NCBI GenBank assembly: GCA_028282685.1
Contig: JANQHK010000028.1
Location: 1 to 36,154 of the forward strand
Length of the DNA stretch: 36,154 nt
Source of the DNA: Phycisphaeraceae bacterium
GTDB lineage: Bacteria; Planctomycetota; Phycisphaerae; Phycisphaerales; Zrk34
Reading direction: 5' to 3'
The first letter of the stretch is position 1, and each line of letters begins with the position of its first letter. This document shows positions 6,252 through 27,066 of the stretch, piece after piece. A model generated the notes under the pieces. That model did no database searches. It was given only the letters and a program-made list of their open reading frames with translations, and was not told the origin of the DNA. The translations under genes and the position numbers were made by a program.

Positions 6252-6412
6252 TAACCGCAAAGGAATATTTGACAGGATGAACAGGATCAAAAGGATGGTA
6301 AGAACGACGACCGGTCAGGTTAATTGCAGCCGGATATTTCATCCTGTTAATCCTGTCAAAAAAAATTCTGGGTCCCTGGCGTTTCTTTGCGCTCTTTGCG
6401 GTTCGAGGTAAC
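6252..6412. repeat. Left copy of the inverted element flanking speB
   Basis: The core 6262-6365 matches, as reverse complement, 7311-7414 with about five mismatches and one indel in roughly 104 bases. The copy has its own terminal inverted repeats (TTTGACAGGATGAACAGGAT at one end, 19 of 20 matching at the other). At its left end the words are strict nonads of the form AACAGGATG. CCGCAAAG at 6255-6262 and CTTTGCGG-type words at 6384-6402 border the core. It begins two bases after the speA stop codon and ends just before the speB Shine-Dalgarno. Confidence 0.9.
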
Positions 6413-12446: not shown

Positions 12447-12592
12447 CCACAGAGAACCGCGGAGGGCCACAGTGGAGGCGTATTTCTGATTTATGATTTC
12501 GGATTTCTGATTTCTGATTTCTCGTGTCTCACACACTTTCTCAGGCATGGTCTTCGTACTAAATCAGAAATCAAAAATCAGCAATCAGAAAT
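12447..12592. repeat. Inverted heptad arrays between miaA and yjbQ
   Basis: Six contiguous 7-base units at 12482-12523 (ATTTCTG and variants) face four to five units at 12561-12592 (AAATCAG and variants), the reverse complement of the same word. The pair could fold into a hairpin with about 35 bases of loop. The right array contains the stop codon and last five codons of yjbQ. A CCACAGAG octad-type word also occurs at 12447-12454, near the miaA start. Confidence 0.9.
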
Positions 12593-15198: not shown

Positions 15199-15333
15199 CC
15201 GCAGAGGCGCCGAGTCGCAGAGATGATTCTAAAAAGGAATAATGGAACTGGATGAGTTGAAAATGGAGTGCCGGCCGGGAGTATTGTGAATGAAACGATC
15301 CAAGTGTTACTCTGCGCCTCTGCGTTTCTGTGG
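15199..15333. repeat. Inverted octad arrays between rpe and the HAD gene
   Basis: Three 8-base units at 15199-15222 (CCGCAGAG and variants) face three units at 15310-15333 (CTCTGCGC and variants), the same word on the other strand. The left array starts directly after the rpe TAA; the right array ends nine bases before the next start codon. The 87 bases between show nothing else. Confidence 0.88.
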
Positions 15334-15341
15334 TATTTCTC

Positions 15342-16094: not shown

Positions 16095-18986
16095 ATGAGC
16101 CAGGACACCGGTAAAAAAAAGAAATTCCCGATCAATCGTCCCAAGACGGCGTTCGCGATGAAGGCCAACCTCGTCCAGCGCGAACCGCAGTTTCAGAAGG
16201 TTTGGGAAAAGCAGGATTTGTACGGCAAGATGCGCAATGCGCCGCATCCCGCCGGCCCGTTTATCTTTCATGACGGCCCGCCGTATGCCAACGGCGATAT
16301 CCACCTCGGCCATCTGCTCAACAAGGTGCTCAAGGATCTGGTCGTGCGCACCCGGCACATGGCCGGGCACGATGTGCATTTCATCCCTGGCTGGGATTGC
16401 CACGGCCTGCCGATCGAGCACAAGGTGCTCAAGGAGCAGACACAGAGGCACGGAGTCACGGAGTCACGAAGTAACGATGTTATGAAGACGCGGTACAAGT
16501 GCCGCGACTACGCCGCCAAGTACGTCAAGTTGCAGGCCAGACAGATGCAGCGGCTGGGCACCGTCGCCGATTATGACAATCCGTACATCACGATGGACCC
16601 GGTTTACGAAGCGGGCGTACTGGAAGTCTTCGCCGATCTGGTGGGCAAGGGGTTGGTCTATCGCGCGCTCAAGCCGGTGCACTGGTCGATCGCCAACCAA
16701 ACCGCGCTGGCCGATGCGGAGCTTGAATACGAAGACCGCGAAGACACCAGCGTCTATGTGCATTTCGATCTGCTGGAACCGGGCAAGCTCCCCGCGGGGT
16801 TGAACGCACCGCAAGGCGAACACGTGACGCTGATGATCTGGACCACCACGCCGTGGACCTTACCGGCGAACCTCGCCGTCGCCGCTTCTGCCGGCGCGCT
16901 GTACGGCCTGTACCGCTACACCGATTCACATAACAAGACGCGCCATGTCGTTCTCGCCGACGCACTGGCCGAGCAAGTCATCGCCGCCGGAAGCGGCGCC
17001 GATGCCACCAAACTCGGCGATTGCACCGGCAGCGAACTGGCCGAAGCCGGCATCCGCTATCAGCATCCGTTCCTCGATCGCATCAATCCGCTGCTGACGG
17101 CCGGCTACGTCACGCTGGAAGACGGCACCGGGCTGGTCCACACCGCCCCCGGCCACGGCACCGAAGACTTCATGACCGGCCAGGCCCACGGGCTGGATAC
17201 CTACTGCCCCGTGCAGGAGGACGGCACGTTCGACGACTCCGCGCCCCAATGGCTGCGCGGAAAAGATGTCTGGCAGGCCAATCCGCTGGTGATCGAGCAG
17301 TTGAAAAAGTCCGGCCACATGCACTTCGATCATACGTTCATGCACAGCTATCCGCACGACTGGCGCAGCAAGACGCCCGTCATCTTCCGCGCCACCGATC
17401 AATGGTTCATCAGCGTGGATCGCCAATGCAATGGCGGCGGTTCACTTCAACAACGCGCGCTCGATGTCACCGCATCCGACGTGCAGTTCATTCCCGAGTG
17501 GGGACGCAACCGCATGCGCGGCATGCTGGAAAGTCGGCCCGACTGGTGCATCAGCCGCCAGCGCGCCTGGGGGCTTCCGATCCCCGCGTTCTACGGCCCG
17601 GATGCCGGACAGGTGCTGCTGACCCGGGCCAGCGTCCAGGCCGCGGCCGACAAGATCCGCGAGAAGGGTTCGGATTACTGGTTTACCGCCGGGGCCGCCG
17701 ATCTGCTCGCCGATTACGATCCGGCCAACGATCCCGATGCGCCAAAGTGGCTGCGGCATGGGCAGTTCAGTGACCATGCAAACACACTCACCAAGTCCAA
17801 CGACATCTTCGACGTCTGGTTCGAATCCGGTTCGTCCTGGTACGCCTGCATGGTTCAGCGCGGACTGGCGCGCGAGCAAGGCCCGGTCACCGACCTGTAT
17901 CTGGAAGGTTCCGATCAGCACCGCGGATGGTTCCAGCTTTCCCTGCTGCCTTGCCTGGGGATGCGCGGCGTTTCGCCGTTCCAAACGGTGCTCACGCACG
18001 GCTTCATGGTCGATAAGGACGGGGCGAAGATGAGCAAGTCCGGAGGAAATGCCATTGCCGTGGAAGACCTGCTCCAGGACCAGGGCGCCGATGTCTGCCG
18101 GTGGTGGGTCAGTTCGCTCAATTACGCCAACGATGTCAAGGTGGATTGGGAGTTCTTCCGCCTCGCCGGCGAGGAATACCGCAAGGTGCGCAACACCATC
18201 CGCTTCCTGCTGGGTAACCTCGGCGATTTCGATCCGGAAAAAGATCGGCGGGAACTGACGCCGCAAGACAAACCGACCCTCGATGGATGGGCTTTCGGCC
18301 GGCTATCCATGCTGCTGTCCGCTGTGCGCAAGGAATACGATGCATACAACTTCCGCAAGGCCAACGAACTGATCTACAACTTCTGCAACGAGTCCCTCTC
18401 GGCGGTTTACCTGGCGGCGGTGAAGGATCGGCTCTACTGCGACAAGGTCGATTCCGATCGCCGCCGGCGCACGCAGACCGTCCTGTACGACATTGCCGAC
18501 GCATTGATTCGTCTGGTCGCGCCGATTCTGGTTCACACCGCCGAGGAAGCGTGGTCGGCATTGAAGGGCGAAGCCGCCGAGTCGGTGCATCTGCAACCGC
18601 TGCCCGATGCGCCTGCCGTGCAAGTCGATGAACATTGGCAGTCCGTCATGGAACTGCGCGATCGCGTCCTGAAAGAGTTGGAGGATGCGCGCGGCCGACG
18701 CGGTTTGGATAATCCGCTGGACTGCGGCGTGGAAGTCGCCTGTCCCCCGGAAGTTTACAAGACGCTGCAACCGTTCATCGTGGACCTGGCCGACCTGTGC
18801 GGCGTGAGCCGGTTCGTGCTGGATGAGAATGGCGACGAAACGATCGGCATCGAAGACCTGACCGCCGAGCCGCGCTGCATGCGCAGTTGGAAGCGCGACG
18901 GGACGGTTGCCGATTACACCGATGCGGATGGCGATGTGGTGTCACTCTCCCAGCGCGACGCCGAGGCGTTGGGATTGGTCCAGTGA
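16095..18986 (+). CDS. ileS: Isoleucyl-tRNA synthetase with an in-frame repeat insertion
   Basis: 963 aa class I aminoacyl-tRNA synthetase (E. coli 938 aa). The HIGH motif is HLGH (70-73) in the ATP-binding fold; the editing domain holds LMIWTTTPWTLPANLA and GTGLVHTAPGHGTEDF; DWCISRQRAWGLPIP is the usual pre-anticodon signature; the KMSKS loop is KMSKSGGN. Anticodon-binding helices follow. Residues 116-131, between GLPIEHKVLKEQ and KTRYKCRDYAAKYV, are encoded by six perfect-length octads (16440-16487), 48 bases, which keep the frame. The C-terminal zinc ribbon expected in bacterial IleS is degenerate: PRCMRSWKRD keeps one cysteine, and no other Cys pair follows. The gene reads through without breaks and is presumably essential and functional. 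Confidence 0.98.
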   Translation: MSQDTGKKKKFPINRPKTAFAMKANLVQREPQFQKVWEKQDLYGKMRNAPHPAGPFIFHDGPPYANGDIHLGHLLNKVLKDLVVRTRHMAGHDVHFIPGWDCHGLPIEHKVLKEQTQRHGVTESRSNDVMKTRYKCRDYAAKYVKLQARQMQRLGTVADYDNPYITMDPVYEAGVLEVFADLVGKGLVYRALKPVHWSIANQTALADAELEYEDREDTSVYVHFDLLEPGKLPAGLNAPQGEHVTLMIWTTTPWTLPANLAVAASAGALYGLYRYTDSHNKTRHVVLADALAEQVIAAGSGADATKLGDCTGSELAEAGIRYQHPFLDRINPLLTAGYVTLEDGTGLVHTAPGHGTEDFMTGQAHGLDTYCPVQEDGTFDDSAPQWLRGKDVWQANPLVIEQLKKSGHMHFDHTFMHSYPHDWRSKTPVIFRATDQWFISVDRQCNGGGSLQQRALDVTASDVQFIPEWGRNRMRGMLESRPDWCISRQRAWGLPIPAFYGPDAGQVLLTRASVQAAADKIREKGSDYWFTAGAADLLADYDPANDPDAPKWLRHGQFSDHANTLTKSNDIFDVWFESGSSWYACMVQRGLAREQGPVTDLYLEGSDQHRGWFQLSLLPCLGMRGVSPFQTVLTHGFMVDKDGAKMSKSGGNAIAVEDLLQDQGADVCRWWVSSLNYANDVKVDWEFFRLAGEEYRKVRNTIRFLLGNLGDFDPEKDRRELTPQDKPTLDGWAFGRLSMLLSAVRKEYDAYNFRKANELIYNFCNESLSAVYLAAVKDRLYCDKVDSDRRRRTQTVLYDIADALIRLVAPILVHTAEEAWSALKGEAAESVHLQPLPDAPAVQVDEHWQSVMELRDRVLKELEDARGRRGLDNPLDCGVEVACPPEVYKTLQPFIVDLADLCGVSRFVLDENGDETIGIEDLTAEPRCMRSWKRDGTVADYTDADGDVVSLSQRDAEALGLVQ
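16440..16487 (+). repeat. Octad array inside the ileS coding sequence
   Basis: Six contiguous 8-base units, the first four being variants of TCACGGAG and the last two more diverged. Total length is 48 bases, a multiple of three. The same word family (CCACGGAA, CACAGAG, GCACGAAG) appears in intergenic arrays at 4051, 12447 and, reversed, 26353. It encodes IleS residues 116-131 (TQRHGVTESRSNDVMK). Confidence 0.85.
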
Positions 18987-25805: not shown

Positions 25806-26228
25806 ATGACGCCTGAGCCCACATCAAACGCCCTGGCTGCACCACCAACCGAGACCGGCTATTTCACCGTCGAACAGGCCAACCGCGCGCTGCCCTACAT
25901 CCGCCGGGTGGCTGAGGATATCCGTAACACCTTCAAGCAGGCCGTGGAACTGCAACAGTCGATGGAACGGCCCGACATCGCCGACAACGTCAACGCCCTG
26001 CGCGAACACTACGAGCAAATCGTCGACAAGCTCAACGGGTACGTCGACGAACTGAGCGAGACCGGCGTGGCGCTGAAGGATTTTGAAATCGGGCTGATCG
26101 ATTTTCCCGCCCTGCACGAAGGCCGCGAGGTTCTGCTTTGCTGGAAGCTGGGCGAGCCGCGCATCGTCGCCTGGCACGAGACCGACACCGGTTTCGCCGG
26201 CCGCCGCGATATCGCAGAGATCGGTTAA
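25806..26228 (+). CDS. DUF2203 family protein
   Basis: 140 aa from the ATG at 25806, with GGAG 9 bases upstream. The family pattern is evident: YFTVEQANRALPYIRRVAED (about residues 18-37), a helical middle, then GVALKDFEIGLIDFPALHEG (about 86-105), REVLLCWKLGE and IVAWHETDTGFAGR. No biochemical role is established for DUF2203. The stop codon is in the first unit of an octad array (26222-26261). The 176-base gap before it contains a TTGACA (25655-25660) and a TATGAT (25712-25717), which are not properly spaced with each other, so its promoter is unclear. Confidence 0.88.
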   Translation: MTPEPTSNALAAPPTETGYFTVEQANRALPYIRRVAEDIRNTFKQAVELQQSMERPDIADNVNALREHYEQIVDKLNGYVDELSETGVALKDFEIGLIDFPALHEGREVLLCWKLGEPRIVAWHETDTGFAGRRDIAEIG

Positions 26229-26383
26229 CCGGTTGATTGGTTAATCGGTTAATCGGTCAAGCCGGACCTGAGAAGTCCCGAGCAGAGCGAGAGACTGCGA
26301 AGGTCCGGATGAATTCCATTTCTGACTTCTTACTTCAGACTTCTTAGTTTTCTTTGTGCCTTCGTGCCTATTGCCTCAGTGCC
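26222..26383. repeat. Octad, heptad and octad arrays between the DUF2203 gene and rph
   Basis: Three arrays lie in sequence: five 8-base units of CGGTTAAT type (26222-26261), which include the DUF2203 stop codon; four 7-base units of TTCTTAC type (26320-26347); and three 8-base units plus a 7-base one of TTCGTGCC type (26353-26383), which include the stop and last codons of rph. The two genes converge here. Between the first two arrays, AGGTCCGG at 26290-26310 and CCGGACCTGAGAAG near 26262 also pair (CCGGACCT / AGGTCCGG). Confidence 0.9.
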
Positions 26384-27066
26384 TTCTTTTGCGCAGCAAT
26401 CAGTTTGCGGATGCCCGAGCGGGCCAGCGTCAGCAACTGATCGAGTTGATCCTGGTCGAACGTTCCTTTTTCTCCCGTGCCCTGCACTTCGATGTACTGT
26501 CCGCGGTGGTTCATCACCACGTTCATGTCCACCTCGGCGTTGACATCAAGTTGGTAATCCAGATCGAGCACGACCCGGCCGTCGACAATGCCGACACTCA
26601 CCGCCGCCACCGGCCCGATCAACGGGTTGGCGGTGATGAGCTTGTCGCGGCGGGCCTGGGTCAGCGCGTCGGCCAGGGCGACGTAAGCGCCGGTGATCGA
26701 GACGGTGCGCGTGCCGCCGTCGGCACAGAGCACATCGCAATCGCAGGTGATCTGGATGCCCGGCATTTTCTCCAGGTCGACCGCAGCGCGCAGCGATCGG
26801 CCGATCAGGCGTTGGATTTCGGTGGCGCGGCTGTTGGGCCCGCGTTTTTGCCGGTCGGGCGTGGAGCCGGGGAGCATGTTGTACTCGGCGGTGACCCAGC
26901 CGCGCGGCGGGTCGGCCTTCTCCAGCCAGGCCGGGGGATTCGTACAGACCGAGGCCGTGCAGAGCACGCGCGTGTTCCCCGCTTCGATCAGAACGCTGCC
27001 GGCGGCGGCGGTCTTGTAGCCGCGGGTGATCTTCAGCGGTCGTAACGGGTTGGTGCGACGGGGCAT
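26368..27066 (-). CDS. rph: Ribonuclease PH
   Basis: 232 aa (E. coli 238 aa). A phosphate-dependent 3'-to-5' exoribonuclease that trims tRNA precursors; the neighbouring divergent tRNA-Arg gene is a potential substrate by coincidence. Signatures: RGWVTAEYNMLPGST (about 55-69), SRATEIQRLIGRSLRA (79-94), and CDVLCADGGTRTVSITGAYV (110-129) with the phosphate-binding region; DLDYQLDVNAEVDMNVV follows, then the last helix LLTLARSGIRKLIAAQ. Start at the ATG 27066; frames further upstream are antisense to the tRNA. The C-terminal KKALRQ and stop are encoded in an octad array (GCACTGAG-type units on this strand). Complete and plausibly active. Confidence 0.97.
   Translation of the reverse strand: MPRRTNPLRPLKITRGYKTAAAGSVLIEAGNTRVLCTASVCTNPPAWLEKADPPRGWVTAEYNMLPGSTPDRQKRGPNSRATEIQRLIGRSLRAAVDLEKMPGIQITCDCDVLCADGGTRTVSITGAYVALADALTQARRDKLITANPLIGPVAAVSVGIVDGRVVLDLDYQLDVNAEVDMNVVMNHRGQYIEVQGTGEKGTFDQDQLDQLLTLARSGIRKLIAAQKKALRQ

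Follow-up and report, generated by a model that had tools for sequence, protein, structure and literature searches.

A tandem octanucleotide array in frame within ileS of a Phycisphaeraceae bacterium and its probable origin from a dispersed repeat family

Can a short tandem repeat that is dispersed between the genes of a bacterium also become part of an essential enzyme? This question is raised by a locus in the window, the whole 36,154-nt stretch of contig JANQHK010000028.1 of a Phycisphaeraceae bacterium, in which 8-base units (octads) follow each other inside an isoleucyl-tRNA synthetase gene. The following features were identified:

16095..18986, + strand: ileS, isoleucyl-tRNA synthetase, 963 aa (ORF translation and TIGR00392 match)
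16302..16313, + strand: HIGH motif (HLGH), residues 70-73; H70 and G72 are invariant in the alignment
16441..16472, + strand: four perfect octads, CACAGAGG CACGGAGT CACGGAGT CACGAAGT, encoding TQRHGVTESRS, residues 116-126; each 7/7 to CRCRRAG
16473..16488, + strand: two decayed octad-like units, AACGATGT TATGAAGA; each 5/7 to CRCRRAG

The ileS product matched the TIGR00392 equivalog with 829 bits (cut-off 621) over residues 20-868, thus nearly at full length, and the 48-bp array (16441-16488) is in frame with the open reading frame. An earlier note on this DNA had proposed read-through of a repeat family within an essential gene, and both results agree with this. The same note had described six contiguous in-frame octads at 16440-16487; frame and sequence were as described, but only four units are clear and two are decayed, and the natural register of the units is 16441-16488. 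Residues 116-131 read TQRHGVTESRSNDVMK. The last two units could represent repeats that have decayed or codons that are in part ancestral; the corresponding residues of relatives are ..GMEPLK or ..DMVAPQ.

Tandem Repeats Finder reported 4.5 copies for the array, which is the top period-8 stretch of the entire window as measured by self-match. Period-8 self-match within ileS was 32/40, as compared to a maximum of 24 after codon-order shuffling and 29 after synonymous shuffling; none of 2000 shuffles of either type reached the observed periodicity or the family score. Relatives' IleS proteins were aligned, as the earlier note had proposed, and the octad peptide was absent from all 33 genomes of the order, six of them belonging to the same family; none of these relatives encodes the peptide by non-periodic codons. 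Hence, the idea that a conserved peptide merely happens to be encoded by codons giving this periodicity, in favor of which nothing was found, is already refuted as far as the available relatives allow, and its probability is practically nil.

A scan of genome contigs gave no IleS closer than about 63%, and the ileS event is dated and polarized only against relatives of about 66% identity, none of them of the same genus. Flanks of the array are 62-82% identical within the family, whereas residues 113-132 match at only 1-3/15 positions. Most same-family linkers are KDLGDxARxMxPxK-like and the source linker is five residues longer; the array therefore appears to have replaced about 11-12 codons rather than being a plain 48-nt addition. 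The best-matching solved bacterial IleRS is likewise five residues shorter at this site. A search for octads over 113 IleS loci of relatives yielded one array, located outside IleS, which equals the control count. As had been predicted, the segment is variable in the family and close to the HIGH motif: it forms a loop about 45 residues past the motif and varies in length among relatives. An AlphaFold2 model of IleS (mean pLDDT 91.9) places residues 121-130, a stretch of lower confidence with a block mean pLDDT of 68, around a turn between helices 105-119/121-125 and 129-153. The proposal that only 3 or 6 units would keep the frame failed, as the linker shows a net gain of 15 nt in ileS and in-gene arrays elsewhere comprise 4, 5 or 7 units. 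Because the array replaced ancestral codons, the requirement for a multiple of three falls on net length and not on unit count.

The assembly of the source genome comprises 2.94 Mb in 157 contigs, and octads were counted by pattern searches and in sampled stretches. The pattern (CRCRRAGN)3, with one mismatch allowed, matched 63 times in the genome as compared to 5 matches of the reversed pattern, and the array thus belongs to the same word family as the intergenic arrays, as had been suspected. A two-unit pattern with 2 mismatches gave no excess (49 matches versus 57 in the control). Typical copies are intergenic inverted pairs of the form AAC-octads ... octads'-GGTT; several intergenic copies are single-armed. 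Their words are mostly CACAGAGG, CGCAGAGG, CACAAAGG and CACGAAGG; the ileS word CACGGAGT, with T at position 8, is uncommon among them. Further members are located in the window:

15200..15223, + strand: left arm of an intergenic inverted octad pair (CGCAGAGG CGCCGAGT CGCAGAGA), pattern match, 1.2 kb upstream of the ileS array
15310..15335, - strand: right arm of the same pair (ends CTGTGGTA), pattern match
26353..26384, - strand: decayed inverted octads, intergenic (CTTTGTGCCTTCGTGCC...CTCAGTGCCTTC), found by eye

Among 35 arrays sampled from the source genome, 29 had no frame that stays open through the array plus 150 bp of each flank. Of the six with an open frame, only ileS reached a clearly positive coding score (0.45, all others ≤0.04), a value that is supportive only, since the codon model was trained on ileS. 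Repeats of 9 bases (GACAGGATGAACAGGAT) are often enclosed by inverted octad pairs; such 9-base repeats (ACAGGATGA) are nested within octad pairs at window positions 6272-6297 and at many intergenic loci. Other tandem words of 7-8 bases, ATTTCTG with inverted AAATCAG as well as ATCGGTTA, occur between genes (window 12482-12592 and 26220-26346), hence several word families coexist. A literature search for the octad words returned nothing relevant, and no description of octads was found there.

A fragmented assembly containing dispersed repeats might have been joined falsely at an octad array. Such a chimera is very improbable here: IleS continues across the array in a single frame, each of its two flanks shows same-family identity, the array lies about 16 kb from the contig start, and a false join of unrelated repeats would not give a continuous IleS. 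An error of three units in repeat number would be invisible in the assembly.

In-frame octads were also found in other genes of related genomes. Cases were identified by a search for octad peptides and open frames and were accepted only if domains or orthologues flank the array. One such gene encodes Radical_SAM and CofH_C domains; we take its product to be MqnE. In four species of one genus the mqnE linker has closely matching length, and the octads share the same phase in three of the four. The words are CACGGAGT/CACGAAGT in genome G067 and CACAAAGG/CACGAAGG in G151, degraded in G153 and eroded in G152. At this site, the species differ in word but hardly in length. A second, inverted octad array is located further along the same gene, and mqnE of G067 contains a whole inverted pair in frame. 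None of 100 codon shuffles reached the observed score in three of the four mqnE cases.

Furthermore, two loops of valS contain octads, with different words in three genera. The loop RMVMFNRYL-X-PVPFRDVFI carries CACGAAGG octads in G067, G151 and G153, GGCAGAGG in G152, an inverted GGCAAAGT/GGCGAAGT pair in G159 and an inverted GACGAAGT pair in G082; octads are absent from it in G055, G155 and G005. The loop SILEK-X-LSLVDRWML carries octads in G067, G152 and G159 and a different palindrome in G153, whereas G151 shows no periodic sequence there. An octad score of 28/28 was reached in six valS genes and by none of 100 codon shuffles, and the scores of two array-free valS genes looked random. When 400 kb from four genomes were scanned for period 8 regardless of word, seven arrays were detected, all in G159 and G082; they fit SRCRRAGN at 6-8 of 8 positions and their words resemble those of the valS arrays of the same genomes. 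No arrays were detected in the 100 kb each of G067 and G152. Permissive loops thus hold, in frame, a repeat word with the flavor of the respective genome, and octads in further essential enzymes of relatives indicate that a genomic repeat family has repeatedly become protein sequence.

A weaker case is the middle domain of clpB in G151 (25/28, reached by 1 of 100 shuffles), which perhaps also contains in-frame octads. The same loop in G067 (L342) contains GGTGFQSIGKRGKDTALESGATKG, apparently a read-through of another dispersed palindrome. Other long open frames across octads (L237, L242, L244, L246, L249, L250, L252-L254, L256, L260, L262, L263 and L271) were rejected as coding insertions, either because no recognized domain extends over the octads or because these precede the probable start codon. 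L318/L319 were also rejected, as the array precedes a beta-helix/NosD protein, and in the SMC/RecN-like L261 the octads form only a C-terminal tail. For valS of the source genome only a 238-aa C-terminal open frame was found (L338, G000:C138:4060-4770), apparently at a contig end.

Local replication slippage can give rise to tandem 8-mers and might have multiplied an octad present in ileS by chance, with no involvement of the dispersed family; the same-phase mqnE arrays, which hold their length while words change, would be in line with it. We consider this origin improbable, as the chance that a random 8-mer fits CRCRRAGN, whatever its rotation and strand, is about 1/256 by our own estimate, the differences among ileS units 1-4 are confined to the variable positions of the CRCRRAGN family, and the same consensus is found in arrays elsewhere, both in other genes and in intergenic regions.

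Another origin, possible although rather unlikely, is a MITE-like mobile element of inverted octads, perhaps mobilized by GxxExxY proteins, which would have lost its second arm after insertion into ileS. Inverted pairs with the shared ends AAC..GGTT are a common form of the family, and whole pairs are in frame in mqnE of G067 and valS of G159 and G082. Two GxxExxY genes (TIGR04256) of the source genome are enclosed by inverted octads, and roughly half of the GxxExxY loci in the same family have octads no more than about 70 bp away, which makes GxxExxY, presumably a PD-(D/E)XK-like family, a candidate partner of the arrays. However, many GxxExxY genes lack octads, and the octad words are too variable for a recently copied element. 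The ileS array consists of one arm with the left flank GAGCAGA; the shared-end inverted pair, common but not universal in the family, is absent, and the site shows neither a target-site duplication nor an element end (AACC..GGTT). No target-site duplication or empty site was demonstrated for such an element. The earlier description of the repeat as tandem rather than palindromic therefore holds for the single arm in ileS, but not for the many inverted pairs in the genome or for the in-gene pairs mentioned above. The two enclosed GxxExxY genes are L164 (G000:C67:27599-28055) and L166 (G000:C67:29148-29595), the latter between hisC-like and hisB-like genes. The family is hardly described in the literature searched.

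Judged from sequence comparison, the ileS stretch is probably a member of the dispersed octad family (SRCRRAGN, here mostly CRCRRAGN) that came to occupy a dispensable surface linker and would be translated. About 16 repeat-derived codons would have taken the place of the 11-12 ancestral ones. Arrays may reach such sites as copies of other arrays or through template switching from them; alternatively, an inverted-pair element may insert and later lose an arm. Thereafter, arrays would drift, presumably neutrally, or become rewritten in the genome's own word. Three properties may explain why IleS tolerates the array: tandem CRCRRAGN is free of stop codons in any forward frame, the loop at this site, located between two helices, varies in length, and only net changes divisible by three would survive. 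All 32 CRCRRAGN words are stop-free in the three forward frames, as compared to 65% of all 8-mers. As 8 and 3 are coprime, every forward frame yields the same octapeptide, for tandem CACGGAGT the polar HGVTESRS. In words of the GACGAAGT type a TGA interrupts the forward strand once per 24 bases, whereas the reverse strand is open.

Species-flavored short tandem words between genes are known from heterocystous cyanobacteria as STRR repeats, which are heptads whereas the units described here have 8 bases; to our knowledge, no comparable in-frame invasion of essential enzymes by STRR has been described. The nearest tandem precedent is the TAACTGA heptamer of Beggiatoaceae and cyanobacteria, short tandem direct repeats which are mostly intergenic, with a minority in ORFs, one of them for an RNA polymerase beta'-like protein (PMC4679880). 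TAACTGA repeats contain stops in all forward frames, and copies in ORFs are mostly at protein ends (PMC4679880). Octads are likewise short and mostly intergenic with few copies in ORFs, and in both families stop codons limit the orientation, but octads differ in unit length and word, are open in forward direction, often form inverted pairs and occur inside loops of IleS, ValRS and MqnE.

The earlier note had drawn a parallel to Rickettsia palindromic elements, which, as summarized in PMC10969869 (Ogata et al. 2000, 2002), are palindromes of about 150 bp with a conserved peptide. The parallel holds insofar as in both cases a repeat family, also present elsewhere in the genome, lies in frame in unrelated metabolic genes and would be read as an insertion. 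It does not extend to the palindrome and the conserved element peptide: the ileS array is a 48-bp tandem of 8-base units without a second arm, words vary by genome, and the peptide is identical in every forward frame. Hence, the array would work like a Rickettsia palindromic element but is not one. Repeat invasion of coding sequence would thereby extend from a host-dependent genus to planctomycete-type bacteria, with a unit of 8 bases, coprime to three, for which frame depends on net length alone. Sister species, with the same site and length and a different word, form a rare natural series on the spread of short repeats and on their accommodation by enzymes under constraints as strong as those on tRNA synthetases.

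REP/REPIN elements with their RAYT (Y1_Tnp) transposases are also dispersed inverted-repeat elements (PMC2817692, PMC3116915), and the octads resemble them in that inverted repeats are dispersed and that valS loops of relatives contain in-frame RAYT-like ORFs. In-frame insertions of about 200 residues were observed in valS of G153 (L320), G067 (L326), G142 (L333) and G005 (L337) and matched IS200-like Y1_Tnp (RAYT-like) with E-values of 5e-8 to 1.3e-7. They occupy the loop between SDQWYV..QR and GDGSLRFYPERY, differ in sequence in three lineages and are flanked by the repeat-like peptides TALESGATK and TSRDRQGA..LPDGRGS. Tentatively, and with rather less than even probability, these observations might belong to a word-variable, GxxExxY-linked octad system (SRCRRAGN) of this order that actively rewrites permissive loops of essential enzymes; its arrays would be seeded in frame, held at constant length and converted to the genome's own word, with RAYT-like transposases sharing one loop. 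Such a system, if real, would be a standing source of new protein loops. The arrays can become long: in G067 (L272, G067:C1:3276500-3287000), 41 consecutive units were found at 2003-2330.
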